A stretch of DNA of 64,000 nucleotides, taken from assembly GCA_005503065.1 (NCBI GenBank), contig SCOE01000001.1:248001-312000 (forward strand), in the 5' to 3' direction. Below are positions 4,502 to 63,432 of the stretch, piece after piece. Made by a program: the position numbers and the translations under genes. The notes under the pieces are model-generated. The model saw only the letters and a program-made list of their open reading frames with translations, was not told where the DNA came from and made no database searches. The DNA is from Comamonadaceae bacterium ALPHA2B. Lineage in GTDB: Bacteria > Pseudomonadota > Gammaproteobacteria > Burkholderiales > Burkholderiaceae_C. How positions within the stretch are numbered: the stretch's first letter is position 1; every line of letters begins with the position of its first letter.

Positions 4502-4567
4502 GTTGCTCACTTTTTGATAGCTGATCGCGCCCGTCGGGCGGGCGCTCCGGGCACTTTTCCTTCGAAA
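4502..4567 (+). repeat. Dispersed two-hairpin repeat, family 1, copy A
   Basis: This copy lies in the convergent gap between the DUF4124 gene and gatB. Its 5' half is degenerate (TTGCTC then TTTTTGATAGC). Its 3' half forms the second hairpin, GCGCCC paired with GGGCGC (4528-4549), followed by the T-rich family end. It can act as a bidirectional terminator here. Other copies are at 10881, 24606, 28721 (partial), 42158, 52263, 57988 (minus) and 62104 (minus). Confidence 0.7.
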
Positions 4568-4583
4568 GCGTCGGCTTGAACGG

Positions 4584-6035: not shown

Positions 6036-6054
6036 GGCGTGTGGAATACGGGCA

Positions 6055-6166
6055 GCCGAACGCAGAGTGCGCAAAGGTGACGCAAAGTGCGCAGAAAGAA
6101 AACCAAAAGATTTCTCATGAATTCTTTTGCGCCCTCTGCGAAGCCTTTGCGTCCTCTGCGTTCGGC
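6055..6166. repeat. Long imperfect inverted repeat with internal CGCAAAG/CGCAGAG units
   Basis: Between gatB and gatA. The outer arms are exact complements: GCCGAACGCAGAG at 6055-6067 and CTCTGCGTTCGGC at 6154-6166. Inside are several CGCAAAG-, GCGCAAAG- and CGCAGA-like units in both orientations around an A-rich centre. Transcribed, it could fold into a long stem inside the gat operon. I read it as an interspersed intergenic repeat; the exact family is not known to me. Confidence 0.7.
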
Positions 6167-6185
6167 TGTCCGGCTTTCATGAATC

Positions 6186-10880: not shown

Positions 10881-10944
10881 ATACTATTGATTTCATAGCG
10901 CGTTGCGCAGACGGGACGGGCGCTGCAGCCCGATTTGCCTTGAA
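10881..10944 (+). repeat. Dispersed two-hairpin repeat, family 1, copy B
   Basis: Between mreD and mrdA, same direction as the operon. CTAT then ATAG arms around TGATTTC (10884-10898), then GCGCAGACGGGACGGGCGCT and the GATTTGCCTTGAAA end. It lies wholly in the 127-bp gap, so mrdA translation depends on its own signals. Confidence 0.8.
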
Positions 10945-10986
10945 ACGACGGCGCGCCTAAGCTGCGCCACGCCCGCCCTCCCTCCC

Positions 10987-24605: not shown

Positions 24606-24672
24606 CATTTGCTATTGTTTTGATAGCTATCGGCGCAGGCGGAGCGGGCGCTGCGGCCCTATTTGCTTCGGG
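24606..24672 (+). repeat. Dispersed two-hairpin repeat, family 1, copy C
   Basis: The best-preserved intergenic copy. First hairpin GCTAT / ATAGC around TGTTTTG (24611-24627), then GGCGCAGGCGGAGCGGGCGC, GGCCC and ATTTGCTT. It fills the convergent gap between the acyl-CoA synthetase and the acyl-CoA dehydrogenase, eight bases from the latter's stop. Confidence 0.85.
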
Positions 24673-28688: not shown

Positions 28689-28720
28689 ACGCAGGTCGTA
28701 ACGAATGTGACGAGTTTGGC

Positions 28721-28747
28721 GCCAGCGCCCGTCCCGCGGGCGCTGGC
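28721..28747. terminator. Convergent hairpin, also partial family 1 repeat (copy D)
   Basis: GCCAGCGCCCG (28721-28731), loop TCCCG, CGGGCGCTGGC (28737-28747): a perfect 11-bp stem. The following GGCCGATTGCACTTTC matches the 3' end of the family 1 repeat. It separates the FadB-like gene from the convergent VOC gene and likely ends both transcripts. Confidence 0.75.
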
Positions 28748-28775
28748 GGCCGATTGCACTTTCTTCTTTCGGGGC

Positions 28776-42157: not shown

Positions 42158-42223
42158 GGATTGCTCCTGTTTTGATAGCGCCTGACGCCCGCCTGCCGGC
42201 CGCTGTCGGCCTATTTGACTCAT
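42158..42223 (+). repeat. Dispersed two-hairpin repeat, family 1, copy E
   Basis: GGATTGCTCC, TGTTTTGATAGC, then CCCGCC/GGCCGC and GTCGGCCTATTTGACTC. The first hairpin is degenerate on its 5' arm, as in copy A. Confidence 0.75.
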
Positions 42224-49180: not shown

Positions 49181-50365
49181 ATGCCGTCCGCCGCGCCGCC
49201 TCCCGCGTTCACGGAACGCCGTGACGACGCATCGCCGCGCGTGGAGCGCGCGCAGGCCGAGGAACACGGTCCCTGGGCGCCTCGCGGCCGCTGGACGGCG
49301 CTGGCGTTCTCCTCCCCGCGTCAGTGGGCCGCCCTCGAGAAATCGCTGGACGAAGCGGTCGGCCCGCAGGCCGGCGGCTCCACCGCCTGGGACCTGCGCG
49401 GCATCGAGGCGCTCGACCACATCGGCGCCCAACTGCTGTGGAACCACTGGGGGCGTGCGTGGCCGGCGCACATCGAGATGACGCCGACGCAGAAGGCCGT
49501 GCTCGACCAGGTGGCCCGCTACAGCACCGCGCCGCCCAAGGCGCCGCACTTCACCTTCTGGGACGAGATCCGGCGCCATTTCGCCAAGGGTCCCGCCCTG
49601 CTGCGCCTGGCGCGCGACGCGATGCTGCTGGTCGGCCAGCTGACGCTGGACCTGCTCAAGCTGATGCGCGCACCGCATCGCGGGCCGTGGCGCGACCTGT
49701 CGGGCCACCTCTACCAGATGGGCACCACGGCACTGCCCATCACGGCGCTGGTGGGCATGCTCATCGGCGTCGTGCTGGCGTATCTCACCTCCAACCAGCT
49801 GCGCAACTACGGCGCCGAGAGCTTCATCGTCAACATCCTGGGGCTGTCGCTGATCCGCGAGCTGGGCCCGGTGCTGGCCGCGGTGCTGGTGGCCGGCCGC
49901 TCGGGCTCGGCCATCACGGCGCAGATCGGCGTGATGCGCGTCACCGAGGAGCTCGATGCCATGCGCGTGATGGGCATTCCGCACGGCTTCCGGCTCGTCA
50001 TGCCGCGCGTGCTGGCCCTGGCCATCGCCATGCCGCTGATCAGCATCTGGACCTCGATCGCCGCGCTGCTGGGCGGCATGCTGGCGGCCGACTCCACGCT
50101 GAACATCTCGCCCGTGTTCTTCCTGCAGCAGCTGCCGCGCGCCGTGCCCTTCAGCAACATCGTGCTGGCGGTGGCCAAGTCGGCCGTCTTCGGCGTGCTC
50201 ATCGCGCTCATCGCCTGCCACTACGGCATGCGGGTCAAGCCCAACACGGAGAGCCTGGGCCGCGGCACCACGGCCTCCGTCGTCACCTCGATCACCATGG
50301 TGATCCTGGTCGACGCCCTGTTCGCCGTGCTGTTCCGCGGCATCGGATTCCGCGCCGGGACATGA
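49181..50365 (+). CDS. mlaE: STAS-MlaE fusion, ABC lipid-transport permease
   Basis: 394 residues, ATG 49181. An N-terminal STAS-like domain (about residues 30-110; AWDLRGIEALDHIGAQLLW) is joined to an MlaE permease (about 140-390) with the conserved ELGPVLAAVLVAGRSGSAI and EELDAMRVMGIP. In E. coli the STAS subunit MlaB is a separate protein; here it is built into the permease. Inner-membrane core of a phospholipid or hydrophobic-compound transporter. ATGA overlap with mlaF. Confidence 0.92.
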   Translation: MPSAAPPPAFTERRDDASPRVERAQAEEHGPWAPRGRWTALAFSSPRQWAALEKSLDEAVGPQAGGSTAWDLRGIEALDHIGAQLLWNHWGRAWPAHIEMTPTQKAVLDQVARYSTAPPKAPHFTFWDEIRRHFAKGPALLRLARDAMLLVGQLTLDLLKLMRAPHRGPWRDLSGHLYQMGTTALPITALVGMLIGVVLAYLTSNQLRNYGAESFIVNILGLSLIRELGPVLAAVLVAGRSGSAITAQIGVMRVTEELDAMRVMGIPHGFRLVMPRVLALAIAMPLISIWTSIAALLGGMLAADSTLNISPVFFLQQLPRAVPFSNIVLAVAKSAVFGVLIALIACHYGMRVKPNTESLGRGTTASVVTSITMVILVDALFAVLFRGIGFRAGT

Positions 50366-51276
50366 GCACCTCGGCCTGGCAACACCTGGACCACGGCGAT
50401 GCGCCGGTGGTCGACATCCACGGGCTCTGGACCGTGTTCGCCAACGACAAGGGCGAGCAGGTCGTGCACCGCGACCTGCAGCTGACCATCGAACGCGGCG
50501 AGATCCTGTCGCTGGTCGGCGGCTCGGGCACCGGCAAGACGGTGCTGCTGCGCCAGATCCTCGGGCTCGAGCACCCCACGCGCGGCGAGGTGCGGGTGCT
50601 GGGCACGCCGCCGAACGCGCTCAGCGCCAAGGGCGCGGCGGTGGTGGGCATGCTGTTCCAGCACGGCGCGCTGTTCTCGGCCTTCAACGTCATCGACAAC
50701 ATCGCCTTCCCGCTGCGCGAGCTGAAGCTGCTGCCGGAGGAACTGGTGATCGATGCCGCGCTGGTCAAGCTGCAGATGGTGGGCCTGGCGCCCGAGCATG
50801 CCTACAAGATGCCGGCCGACCTTTCGGGCGGCATGATCAAGCGCGTGGCGCTGGCCCGCGCGCTCATCATGGACCCGCCGCTGCTGCTGCTCGACGAGCC
50901 CACCGCGGGCCTGGACCCGGCCGCGTCGGACAGCTTCTGCGACCTGCTGCGCGGCCTGCACCGCGAGCTGGGGCTGACGGTGGTGATGGTCACGCACGAC
51001 CTCGACACGCTGCTCGACCTGTCGACCCGCATCGCCGTGCTGGCCGACCAGAAGGTGATCGTTGCCGGCACGGCCGACGAAGTGACCCGCTTCGACCACC
51101 CCTTCATCCACGACTACTTCCTCGGCGGCCGCGGCCAGCGCGCCATGCTCGCCCTGAAAGACATGAAGGCCCCCACGCTCCCCGCTTCGCGAGGTTCGCT
51201 GCCCCCCGAGGGGGCGCCCGCCGCCTTGGGGCGGCCCGGCGGCGGCGGCACCGCCTCCCCTGAGAAGGACGATTGA
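50362..51276 (+). CDS. mlaF: MlaF-type ABC ATPase with repeat-derived tail
   Basis: 304 residues, ATG 50362. Walker A GGSGTGKT (about residue 53), signature LSGGMIKRVALARAL, Walker B LLLLDEPTAGLDP, His switch VTHDLDT. The catalytic part ends near residue 269 (QRAMLALKDMK), the usual length. From Ala270 the chain reads APTLPASRGSLPPEG and then Gly/Pro-rich sequence to the stop; this segment is a family 2 repeat copy (51169-51240) translated in frame. Stop 51274-51276, two bases before mlaD. Confidence 0.92.
   Translation: MSTSAWQHLDHGDAPVVDIHGLWTVFANDKGEQVVHRDLQLTIERGEILSLVGGSGTGKTVLLRQILGLEHPTRGEVRVLGTPPNALSAKGAAVVGMLFQHGALFSAFNVIDNIAFPLRELKLLPEELVIDAALVKLQMVGLAPEHAYKMPADLSGGMIKRVALARALIMDPPLLLLDEPTAGLDPAASDSFCDLLRGLHRELGLTVVMVTHDLDTLLDLSTRIAVLADQKVIVAGTADEVTRFDHPFIHDYFLGGRGQRAMLALKDMKAPTLPASRGSLPPEGAPAALGRPGGGGTASPEKDD
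51169..51240 (+). repeat. GC-rich repeat, family 2, copy 3, inside mlaF
   Basis: GCCCCCACGCTCCCCGCTTC, GCGAGGTTCGCTGCC, CCCCGAGGGGGCGC, then CCGCCTTGGGGCGGCCCGGC. Same orientation relative to the gene as copies 1 and 2 behind mmsA and the SDR at 55722. Here it has no preceding stop and encodes the C-terminal tail of MlaF from Ala270. Confidence 0.75.
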
Positions 51277-51278
51277 TC

Positions 51279-52241
51279 ATGGAGAACAAAGCCCATGCCC
51301 TCGCCGCCGGCGCCTTCGTGCTCGGCCTGGTGGCGGTGCTCGTTGCGCTGATCCTCTGGTTCACGCGCGACACGACGGTGCGCAATACCTACGAGTTGTC
51401 CACCCGCGACGCCGTGAGCGGCCTGCAGCCGCAGGCCGCGGTGCGCTACCGCGGCATCATGGTCGGCAAGGTGACGGGCATCGATTTCGACCCCAAGCAG
51501 CGCGGCAACGTGCGCGTGCGCATCAGCGTCGACGAGCGCGTGCCCCTCACCACCTCCAGCTACGCCACGCTGGCCTACCAGGGCGTCACCGGCCTGGCCT
51601 TCATCGCGCTGGACGACAAGGGCAAGGGCGACGAGAAGCCGCTCGTGCCCAACAACGACGACCCGCCGCGCCTCCCGCTGCGGCCCTCGGCGCTGGCGTC
51701 GCTGCAGGACCATGGCGAAGAGATCCTCTCGCAGGTCGAGGAGATCACGCGGCGCGCCAACCGGCTGCTCAACGACCAGAACCAGCAGCGGATCGCCGAC
51801 GCGCTGGAGAACATCGCCCAGGTGGCCGCCAGCGCCAACCGCGTGACCCAGGCCTTCGACAACACGCTGAAGACCCGCATCGACCCGGCGCTGGCCGCGA
51901 TCCCGCCGCTGGCCGGCAGCGTGCGCAGCACGGCCGCCGACTTCGCGCGCGTGGCGCAGACGCTCAACACCACCATCGCGCGCCTCAACGCCGAGGGCGG
52001 CACCATGGACCGCCTGGGCAGTGGCACGGCGGCGCTGCAGCAGACGCTCGAGTCCATCAACAACGGCACCTTGCCGCGCCTGAACCGCGCGGCCGACGAC
52101 ACCTCGCTGGCCGCGCGCCGCGTGGGCCGGCTGGCCGACACCATCGCCGACAGCCCGCAGTCGCTGGTCTATGGAACCGGCACGCCGGCGCCGGGTCCGG
52201 GCGAGGCGGGCTTCGTCGCGCCCACGGCCACGGGCCGGTGA
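51279..52241 (+). CDS. mlaD: MCE-domain protein MlaD
   Basis: 320 residues, ATG 51279. One N-terminal membrane segment (about residues 9-30, GAFVLGLVAVLVALILWF). The MCE domain follows (about 38-115; GLQPQAAVRYRGIMVGKVTG, VPLTTSSYATLAYQGVTGL), then a long helical region (about 140-300). MCE proteins form hexameric tunnels for lipids across the periplasm. The long C-terminal helix suggests a needle-like or extended assembly rather than the short E. coli MlaD. Confidence 0.93.
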   Translation: MENKAHALAAGAFVLGLVAVLVALILWFTRDTTVRNTYELSTRDAVSGLQPQAAVRYRGIMVGKVTGIDFDPKQRGNVRVRISVDERVPLTTSSYATLAYQGVTGLAFIALDDKGKGDEKPLVPNNDDPPRLPLRPSALASLQDHGEEILSQVEEITRRANRLLNDQNQQRIADALENIAQVAASANRVTQAFDNTLKTRIDPALAAIPPLAGSVRSTAADFARVAQTLNTTIARLNAEGGTMDRLGSGTAALQQTLESINNGTLPRLNRAADDTSLAARRVGRLADTIADSPQSLVYGTGTPAPGPGEAGFVAPTATGR

Positions 52242-52257
52242 GAAGGAGAGTCCGAAG

Positions 52258-52938
52258 ATGGGACTATTTGCTATGAAATCAGGAGCTGATCGCGCAGGCG
52301 GGACGGGCGCTCTGGCCGTTTTTTGCTTGGGTTTTCTGTTACTTGCCGGCTGCAGCGCGCTGCCCGACAAGCCGCATCGCACCGTGCTCTACGACTTCGG
52401 CCCCGGTCCGCTGGCCGTCAGCGCACCGCCTGCGGTCGGCACCGCCGCGCTCCCGCCCATCACGCTGGCCGACCTGGACACGGCGGCGTCGCGCCTGGAG
52501 GGCACCGGGCTCAACTACCGCCTCGGTTATGCCGACGCGAACGAACTGCGGCCCTACGCCGGCTCGCGCTGGACGCAGCCGCCACTCCAACTCTTCCGCC
52601 AGCGCCTGCGCGACGGCCTCACGCCCAGCCGCACCGTGCTCGGCACGCTGGAGGCCGCCAACCTGAGCCGCGAGGGCCGCAGCACTGACGTGCTGCGCAT
52701 CTCGCTCGACGAGTTCAGCCACTACTTCGAGTCGCCCACCGCCAGCGTGGGCCTGGTGCGCGTGCGCGCCACGCTCGTGCGCGGCTCGCCGGCTGGCGAG
52801 CGCGTGCTGGGCCAGCGCGTGTTCACCGTGCGCCAGGCCGCGCCCACGAACGACGCCGCCGGCGGCGTGAAGGCCCTCACTGCGGCCAGCGACGAGGCGG
52901 TGGCGCAGATGGTGGCGTGGGTGAACCAGGCGCGCTGA
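52258..52938 (+). CDS. ABC-transport auxiliary lipoprotein (PqiC-like)
   Basis: 226 residues, ATG 52258 with AGAAGGAG upstream; ATG 52273 is a second candidate. Lipobox LLAGC with Cys32. The mature part has VLYDFGP near the start and LNYRLGYADANELRPYAGSRW near residue 90, typical of the ABC_trans_aux (PF03886) family found with MCE systems. Residues 3-25, the n-region and half of the hydrophobic core, are encoded by a family 1 repeat. Expected to sit in the outer membrane and receive the substrate from MlaD. Confidence 0.88.
   Translation: MGLFAMKSGADRAGGTGALAVFCLGFLLLAGCSALPDKPHRTVLYDFGPGPLAVSAPPAVGTAALPPITLADLDTAASRLEGTGLNYRLGYADANELRPYAGSRWTQPPLQLFRQRLRDGLTPSRTVLGTLEAANLSREGRSTDVLRISLDEFSHYFESPTASVGLVRVRATLVRGSPAGERVLGQRVFTVRQAAPTNDAAGGVKALTAASDEAVAQMVAWVNQAR
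52263..52332 (+). repeat. Dispersed two-hairpin repeat, family 1, copy F, coding
   Basis: ATTTGCTATGAAATC, AGGAGCTGATCGCGC, AGGCGGGACGGGCGC, TCTGGCCGTTTTTTGCTTGG. It aligns along its full length with copy C at 24606 and is read in frame in its own forward orientation as the start of the lipoprotein signal peptide. Confidence 0.85.
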
Positions 52939-57973: not shown

Positions 57974-58891
57974 ATGGTGCGCCGTCGTTTCGAGCCGAAT
58001 CGGCCTGCAGCGTCCGCCCGCTGGGCGGCGGCAGCTATCTTTTCGATAGCACTCTCCGGCCTGGCGCGGGCCGCAGACTACGCCGGCCCGATCTTCGACA
58101 CGCACCTGCACTACAACGAGGAGGCCTGGAACGGCGACGCCGGCCCCTTCCCGCCCACCGAGGCGCTGGCCCGCATGCAGCGCAACGGCGTGCGCGCCAT
58201 CGTCGGCAACTCGCGGCCCAACGAAGGCACGCGCACGCTGGCCGCGCTGCGCGAGACGCGCGAGGCCGGCGTCACCGTGGTGCCCTTCGTGCGCCTGTAC
58301 CGCACGCGGGCCGACTACACGAACTGGTTCCGCGACGAGAGCATCCACGAGATGGTGCTGGCCGAGCTGGCGCGCGGCACGGCCAGCGGGCCCTACCGCG
58401 GCATCGGCGAGTTCCACCTGTACGAGAGCGCGAACGCCAACGGTCCGGTCGCCAGGAAGCTGATGGTGCTGGCCGAGCAGCGCCAGCTGGCCGTGCTGGC
58501 ACATGTGGACGACGAAGCCGTGGACCTGCTGATGGCGCACACGCCGTCCAAGGGGCGCGACAACCGCCTCATCTGGGCGCATACCGGCATCGGCGGTGCG
58601 CCCGTGGCGCGCGTGCGGCAGATGATGGAGCGCTACCCGAAGCTGATGGGCGAGCTGTCGTACCGGCCGGGGCTGACATGCGAAGGCGGCAAGCTTTGCG
58701 CGGAATGGCGTGCGCTGATCGAGGCGTTCCCCGACCGCTTCCTTGTCGGTTCCGACACCTGGATCAACCAGCGCTGGAGCTCCTACGACGAGATCATGCG
58801 GGGCTACCGCGTGTGGCTCGGCGACCTGCCGCCAGCGCTCGCGCGGCGCGTGGCCTGGGACAACGCGGCGCAGATCTTCGGCGTGCGCTGA
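57974..58891 (+). CDS. Exported amidohydrolase (TIM-barrel, Amidohydro_2-like)
   Basis: 305 residues, ATG 57974, 10 bp after the hydrolase stop. Signal peptide of about 33 residues (n-region RRRFEPNRP, hydrophobic [12 protein letters not shown], cleavage near ARA). The mature part opens with the metal motif IFDTHLHYN, then [26 protein letters not shown] and the late Asp in [12 protein letters not shown]. Codons 5-26 lie in a family 1 repeat in reverse orientation. Periplasmic hydrolase of unknown substrate. Confidence 0.86.
57988..58050 (-). repeat. Dispersed two-hairpin repeat, family 1, copy G, coding
   Basis: Minus-strand orientation: GCTATC/GATAGC around GAAAA (58034-58050), then CCGCCC/GGGCGG hairpin, GCAGGCCGATTCGGCTCG. 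It is read on its reverse strand as residues 5-26 of the amidohydrolase signal peptide, opposite to the use made of copy F. Confidence 0.85.
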
Positions 58892-62083: not shown

Positions 62084-62103
62084 GGGCCCGGGTTATACGC
62101 CGG

Positions 62104-63249
<1,146 letters not shown>

Positions 63250-63327: not shown

Positions 63328-63432
63328 CGGACGGTTCGCCGTCTCCCGCTTTTCCTCCCTGAGCGGGTGCCTTGATGTGTGACAGCAAAAGGGCTTCGTG
63401 GCCCGGCGTTTTTGAACGCCGGGCTTTTTTTT
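63328..63432 (+). ncRNA. Candidate small RNA between hemB and hemJ
   Basis: No coding sequence precedes the strong terminator at 63401, but a plausible promoter does. The predicted transcript of about 105 nt has a small hairpin GACGG-TTCG-CCGTC (63330-63343). A second hairpin CCCGC / GCGGG (63345-63367) follows, whose loop exposes TTTTCCTCCC, complementary to Shine-Dalgarno sequences. A terminator hairpin closes it. C-rich loops of this kind are known in betaproteobacterial double-hairpin small RNAs. The remainder of this 316-bp gap (63157-63292) shows nothing I can name. The exact 5' end is a guess. Confidence 0.5.
63401..63432 (+). terminator. Strong intrinsic terminator
   Basis: GCCCGGCGTT (63401-63410), loop TTTG, AACGCCGGGC (63415-63424), eight T. 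Perfect 10-bp stem. On the plus strand nothing coding lies upstream in the gap, which supports a small RNA. Confidence 0.95.

Follow-up and report, generated by a model that had tools for sequence, protein, structure and literature searches.

A short dispersed element of Comamonadaceae in the predicted signal peptides of a PqiC-like lipoprotein and an amidohydrolase

Repeats inside genes are known, and such cases have mostly been read as neutral decoration or as misannotation. In Yersinia, a YPAL/RU-2 MITE of 168 bp at YPO1552 is described as contributing to the signal peptide predicted for a putative exported protein, a single hypothetical new protein of Y. pestis and Y. pseudotuberculosis (PMC2229807). 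The element of the present study is likewise a small repeat that forms part of a predicted signal peptide; it differs from YPAL/RU-2 by its length of ~62 bp, its location in conserved transport and enzyme families of many genera, its presence in two genes on opposite strands and its resemblance to the copies of its own genome. REP sequences and RAYT genes (REPtrons) share with it, according to the account in PMC3733652, the high copy number, the position in tandem and convergent spacers near 3′ ends, a RAYT-type neighbour and some copies within open reading frames; the same account describes two Xanthomonas species that carry unlike REPs at roughly the same recB site. The ~62-bp element is set apart from REPs by the absence of a terminal GTAG or CGTC tag and by coding copies in export signals. 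The palindromic elements of Rickettsia are also short and fused in frame to protein genes, but at ~150 bp and in unrelated genes they are distinct from the present element by description (PMC10969869, PMC2229807). The Beta-proteobacterial repeat element BRE, of ~90 bp, is dispersed in Comamonadaceae with some copies in coding sequences and is also described for Bordetella (PMC3110155), whereas the present element was found almost only in family f1 of an order-wide sample (R2); compared by description, the two may or may not be related. Two spaced motifs, GCTTAT(N)5AAGCG with 114 copies in Acidovorax ebreus and ATAGCT(N)22CAAAAG with 125 copies in Polaromonas naphthalenivorans, are described as mostly intergenic, near genes and in many cases between convergent genes (PMC5217627), as is the present element; the passages on these motifs name no element and give no coding role. 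The Acidovorax motif fits hairpin 2 of the consensus of genome G184 letter for letter, and the present element has been recorded earlier, as motifs to which no role was assigned, in Acidovorax and probably in Polaromonas. No report of this element as a signal peptide was found in the open-access literature searched; new, as far as that search goes, are its presence in conserved proteins under 28 genus labels, its occurrence on opposite strands in two genes and its resemblance to the copies of its own genome.

The window, i.e. the whole stretch of 64,000 nucleotides that was analysed, contains an MCE operon with a PqiC-like lipoprotein gene. The relevant features are:

49181..50365, + strand: MlaE permease (PF02405, E 2.5e-71)
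50362..51276, + strand: ABC ATPase of the MCE operon, identified by eye from motifs
51279..52241, + strand: MCE-domain protein (PF02470)
52243..52248, + strand: Shine-Dalgarno sequence AAGGAG of the lipoprotein, outside the element, 9 nt to ATG 52258
52258..52938, + strand: PqiC-like lipoprotein gene (PF03886, ABC_trans_aux, E 5.3e-10) with lipobox LAGC and Cys32
52266..52330, + strand: copy of the dispersed element in the lipoprotein reading frame, residues ~4-24 (nhmmer E 4e-17, models including this copy)

The product of 226 amino acids has the lipobox and the MCE operon context of a PqiC-like (ABC_trans_aux) protein; neither it nor the amidohydrolase described below matched NCBIfam at E ≤ 0.001. 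Its nearest orthologues in named genera are those of Xenophilus aerolatus and Xenophilus sp. E41 (90-93%), and an unclassified MAG reaches 98%. From ATG 52258 on, the leader reads MGLFAMKSGADRAGGTGALAVFCLGFLLLAGC. The original prediction had attributed residues 3-25 of this leader, including half of the hydrophobic core, to a dispersed repeat. The repeat is indeed in frame in the lipoprotein, with the slightly smaller extent of residues ~4-24; of the ten-residue window with the highest hydrophobicity it supplies 4 residues. As had been stated, the start codon and the ribosome site are located outside the repeat. A second ATG (52273) is present inside the element and lacks a Shine-Dalgarno sequence; between this codon and the Cys codon, TTG 52327 is the only in-frame start by reading, 8 codons before the Cys. 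A codon model alone places the start of the gene at 52384. Judged from frame and spacing, a coding role of the element in the leader is close to certain, and the element-coded leader is presumably translated and exported. Codon-position counts in the Xenophilus leader revealed no clear constraint at the protein level (0 synonymous and 5 non-synonymous codons between G000 and G009).

The claimed derivation of the leader from a repeat was confirmed. A BLASTN search of the own genome with the 75-nt query gave at least 40 places at E ≤ 1e-3, the own site included (best 40 of 166 candidates scored), and a hidden Markov model (HMM) of dispersed copies that contained no PqiC copies still detected 52266-52330 with E 4.7e-10 (99-leader set, see below). 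With a covariance model at least 150 copies were found in the own genome. A 400-kb stretch of the contig around the locus carries 42 copies at E ≤ 0.01, the leader copy counted, of which 31 are intergenic; the PqiC copy itself falls among these 31 because the codon-based gene caller cuts the leader off. Around the Xenophilus-like locus the element thus described, ~62 bp long, amounts to ~100 copies per Mb, and the consensus of 40 own copies is nGnTTGCTATGAAATCnATAGCTGCTCGCGCAGGCGGGACGGGCGCTGCAGGCCnATTTGGCTTGAAAnnnnn. Further copies in the window outside the two leaders are:

4512..4569 (contig block 252512-252569), + strand: dispersed copy, intergenic
10882..10946, + strand: dispersed copy, intergenic
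24607..24671, + strand: dispersed copy, intergenic
28711..28748, − strand: weak partial copy (E 8e-3)
42161..42222, + strand: dispersed copy, intergenic (E 7e-4)
62103..62170, − strand: dispersed copy overlapping a gene edge

Density in 13 sampled genomes ranged from 62 to 288 copies per Mb, values that may be high because several of the 80-kb blocks were chosen near known matches. The 282 copies in 13 blocks were distributed over 137 tandem, 68 convergent and 12 divergent spacers; 64 were inside called genes and one was at a gene edge. Per base, copies were commoner in convergent than in divergent spacers (p 3e-19). Tandem copies showed no strand preference (66 same, 71 opposite) and were located at a median of 17 nt from the end of the upstream gene. 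High copy number, intergenic position, location at 3′ ends and rarity between divergent genes are features of REP sequences. A gene of the RAYT type (PF01797, Y1_Tnp) gave one match in each of 12 genomes tested (L381-L392), with 53-91% identity to the G000 protein. The element was found at or near this gene in all seven element-rich genomes and in none of the five poor ones (3.3-kb loci): in five it is antisense at the stop codon (weakly in G285, E 0.009), in G184 it precedes the start by 101 nt, and in G022 it overlaps the called start. As a baseline, an antisense copy within 20 nt of the stop codon was found for 73 of 1795 genes, a comparison that ignores shared descent (G000 and G009 share a genus). 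Since the RAYT-type gene occurs in all 12 genomes including the poor ones, its presence does not explain the presence of the element, and this candidate cause was rejected. By inspection, none of the 13 consensus sequences has a terminal GTAG or CGTC tag, and the element is therefore called REP-like and not REP; a REP-like nature is likely. RNAalifold predicted six weak pairs and no compensatory changes for the 40 own copies. Between the consensus sequences of different genomes, the arms of hairpin 2 vary together by eye. At the best axis, 68% of cells are paired. Copies within one block are on average 55-67% identical, a level that makes recombinational conversion hard, and no pair exceeds 87%, which means that a recent burst is not seen.

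The lipoprotein is present in all 15 genomes of the genus that were searched and matched in 157 of 299 genomes of the family. Leaders were compared in a set of 99 (15 of the genus, 84 of other genera, with 85 fetched of 152 other matched genomes; G121, which looks element-like, was left out of the 100). The HMM used for scoring was trained on 272 dispersed copies of 13 genomes without PqiC copies; its seed copies had originally been found with models that did hold PqiC copies, and the amidohydrolase copies of G000, G184 and G102 are among them. It matched 51 of the 99 leaders at E ≤ 0.05 and 49 at E ≤ 1e-3, with a best E of 4e-16; 51 of 99 is not an unbiased rate, because the leaders of other genera were picked by score and partly one per genus. 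All 51 element-type leaders, which carry 28 genus labels as assigned by the tool, have the element in sense orientation and in one frame. Antisense matches were obtained for nine leaders at E ≤ 0.05 (a palindromic echo) and for none at E ≤ 1e-3, and the control stretch directly upstream of the leader matched in 1 of 99 (G218). In G218 itself (L203) an element-type leader is split mid-way by the in-frame insertion of another sequence, which reads ...LTPALSQREREQ...SPSPLWGEGGVRG... and is probably a common dispersed repeat. Among 113 nearly gap-free dispersed copies, 75 are open in the used frame; the corresponding numbers are 74 for each of two antisense frames and 45 for another sense frame. 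The distance from the element to the Cys codon is 77-92 nt in 47 of the 51 leaders, and the start-to-element distance varies widely. In 35 leaders the best-scoring start precedes the element, and in 16 it falls within the element. Simple scores gave a net positive n-region for 48 and a hydrophobic core for 50 of the 51. The suggestion of a route to new N-termini in this family of bacteria is thus borne out, and its scale exceeds the earlier claim by many genera and by a second gene on the opposite strand.

Within the genus, the element-type leader is found in 5 of 15 genomes (G000, G006, G007, G009, G010); G001 has an eroded element with the frame and length of the element-type leaders, and the leaders of the remaining nine are of other kinds, such as MPSMFLDRKVRVAAGLALLLLAGC (G003) and MHRSLSLPRRALLAAAVLVLAAC (G011). 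Relatives that lack the repeat have different leaders, which supports the original prediction on this point. Element counts are at least 150 in the five leader carriers, 99 in G001 and 0 to 4 in the other nine. The long leader of G004-type genomes was considered as a second dispersed repeat and rejected, as only short matches occur elsewhere.

Across the whole set, at least 20 dispersed copies are present in 48 of 51 leader-positive genomes (exceptions G131, G165 and G263) and in 6 of 47 leader-negative ones, or 7 of 48 with G001 (Fisher's test for 48/51 against 6/47, 2e-17, relatedness ignored). Two of the six leader-negative, element-rich genomes have an altered element leader, split in G218 and eroded in G303. 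Counts of 111, 126-133 or 150 lie at or near an upper limit of counting and are to be read as lower bounds; stricter filters were applied to the 47 leader-negative genomes and to the order-wide sample, and G007 was counted with R1 only. In the order-wide sample of 200 genomes these filters left five with a match, four of the family and one, with a single match, of family f38. Twelve changes of leader type are needed on the tree built from 105 lipoprotein bodies, and well-supported branches force at least nine of them. In one clade, Variovorax sp. J22R193 and the Xenophilus group carry the element leader, and G003 and the Pseudacidovorax rows do not. With such a patchy distribution, a single capture needs many losses, or else there were several gains. 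Eroded leaders in the same frame were recognised in G001, G206 and G303, for which none of 2000 codon shuffles was as good (background of 232 pairs: nine reach 0.01 and one reaches 0.002). The signal was marginal in G160 and G254, and no residue of the element was detected in the leaders of G002, G003, G004, G011, G014, G061, G146 and G207; within the genus the erosion test covered five (G002, G003, G004, G011, G014) of the nine element-negative leaders other than that of G001.

The middle of the element is genome-specific, with GCGCCCG..CGGGCGC in G000, GCGCTTG..CAAGCGC in G184 and AGCCCAGG..TTGGGCT in G102. In all 13 genomes compared, each of another genus, the PqiC copy is closer to the dispersed copies of its own genome than to those of other genomes. 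Middle-segment identity of the PqiC copies is 0.609 to own dispersed copies, 0.484 to those of other genomes and 0.516 to PqiC copies across genera. The own genome has a mean rank of 2.15 of 13 with all columns and of 2.54 with the middle alone (permutation p printed as 0.0000), close to the 2.44 and 2.47 of dispersed copies that were left out singly. Base composition as the mere cause of this match was ruled out overall by composition-corrected scores (mean own rank 1.85 to 2.62, p 0.00000 to 0.00002), with the exception of four of the 13 genomes (G018, G259, G089 and G285), where a shuffled query tracked the own genome equally well (0.19 to 0.71 of shuffles), and with G000 as a marginal case of nearly equal tracking (0.073). 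Congeners track less (mean rank 4.16); the Polaromonas genomes G193 and G263 ranked 13 and 12 of 13 against G102. By eye, two dispersed copies of G193 resemble the leader of G193 itself, and codons such as ATA GCT are retained in many leaders.

A second copy of the element is located in the predicted signal peptide of an amidohydrolase gene of the same window, in the opposite orientation:

57974..58891, + strand: amidohydrolase gene (PF04909)
57987..58052, − strand: element copy, antisense, in the predicted signal peptide (E 6.3e-10; this copy is among the HMM training set)

Read backwards, the element makes up most of the amidohydrolase leader, the cleavage site having been placed by eye. The amidohydrolase matched in 18 of 38 genomes searched. 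In nine of these 18 orthologues, which span six genus labels, the antisense element was detected at E ≤ 0.0013; G131 has it at 0.038, and all antisense copies including that of G131 are in one frame. The element was not detected in the amidohydrolases of G001, G003, G014, G122, G130, G207, G209 and G271, of which G209 is element-rich. The match in G207 (L365) contains one TAA. With all columns, the own or a same-genus genome ranked first for seven of eight amidohydrolase copies, three of these against G000, and with the middle segment alone for five of those seven; for the G193 copy, G102 was outside the top three. In this ranking the amidohydrolase copies of G000, G184 and G102 were excluded from the genome profiles and kept in the pooled pseudocounts. 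Other genes, too, showed single copies in the same sense frame in or close to possible export signals (G102 block 314962, G047 block 70272, G244 67512, G285 66259, G209 30784, G000 block 340273); by eye, two of these look like orthologues of one another.

We lean, by a little, towards a few old captures that some process has since kept in step with the element family of each genome. The leader would derive from a REP-like, 3′-extragenic repeat of Comamonadaceae with a RAYT-type gene as its neighbour. One copy, situated in the short spacer that precedes the PqiC-like gene, may have become coding early in the history of the family, read either from the upstream Shine-Dalgarno sequence and ATG or from the element's own ATG, so that the element would code for the basic n-region and the first part of the hydrophobic core and native sequence for the rest of the core and the lipobox. 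The leader copy, fixed in strand and frame, would stay like its own subfamily through selection by a sequence-specific factor, for example RAYT, or through conversion, and loss of the element family from a lineage would let the leader erode to ordinary coding sequence or be replaced. Signal peptidases remove export signals from the mature protein, and a leader that hosts an element would be no exception; since signal peptidase II removes everything before the Cys, the site presumably tolerates change. The original prediction, in which a mobile or drifting element created or replaced an export signal, oversimplifies the case of a leader with fixed strand and frame for each gene and a sequence like the subfamily of its own genome. 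The main rival is recurrent insertion, in which many hits occur in the same short leader region, those that read as a signal peptide survive, and likeness to the local subfamily only reflects recent arrival. We regard it as possible, if rather doubtful. It would account for the own-genome resemblance, for the patchiness with its nine or more forced changes, for the divided clade of Variovorax sp. J22R193, the Xenophilus group, G003 and Pseudacidovorax, for the variable distance between start and element and for the RAYT-type gene beside a copy. However, insertions would hardly choose one strand and frame in 51 of 51 leaders although the other frames are open in 74, 74 and 45 copies, nor the opposite strand in nine of nine amidohydrolases, and the narrow distance to the Cys codon and the eroded same-frame leaders of G001, G206 and G303 argue against it as well.

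A single old insertion whose later evolution was that of an ordinary signal peptide only, free of any exchange or constraint common to the dispersed copies, would explain the fixed strand, frame and narrow spacing and would suit the four genomes without composition-independent tracking. We consider it improbable, because the middle segment is nearer to the own dispersed copies in 13 of 13 genomes, because codons such as ATA GCT appear to be kept and because leader and element family are lost together. Still less credible is an untranslated element followed by a lipoprotein that starts downstream. The codon model alone does start the gene at 52384, and the account of PMC3733652 takes most N-terminal REPs of other bacteria to be non-coding, but the only later in-frame start, TTG 52327, leaves too few codons before the Cys for a signal peptide, the spacing to the Cys keeps the frame in 51 of 51 leaders and the Shine-Dalgarno sequence stands at the upstream ATG. 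The least plausible reading is chance likeness of signal-peptide codons to the repeat. Signal-peptide DNA is compositionally odd, and the single weaker in-frame matches in other exported genes could be of this kind; for the PqiC and amidohydrolase leaders chance is disfavoured. Against it stand E-values of PqiC leaders down to 4e-16 with a model trained without PqiC copies, and the leaders of element-poor genomes, which mostly lack a match. To a wider reading we would give even chances: the amino acids of export signals would be set by a dispersed, mostly non-coding element that evolves in concert. At conserved sites of two or more unrelated genes, with the element on one strand in one gene and on the opposite strand in another, the signal peptides would change in step with the many intergenic copies and turn into ordinary coding sequence only once the element family has died out in that genome.

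In conserved proteins, the element family appears to be a durable supplier of N-termini, presumably tolerated because the peptide is cleaved off. The match between coding and intergenic copies puts an old question within reach of testing, namely whether REP-like repeats are kept alike by transposition, by conversion or by selection through a binding factor. It is also a warning that codon-based gene callers cut element-derived leaders off. Two further observations concern the window. The sole Rfam match at the gathering cut-off is anti-hemB (Burkholderia RNA 7) at 63342-63432 on the + strand, with 65 bits, and an inverted repeat at 6042-6179 has arms of 55 nt, 28 nt between them and 78% complementarity.
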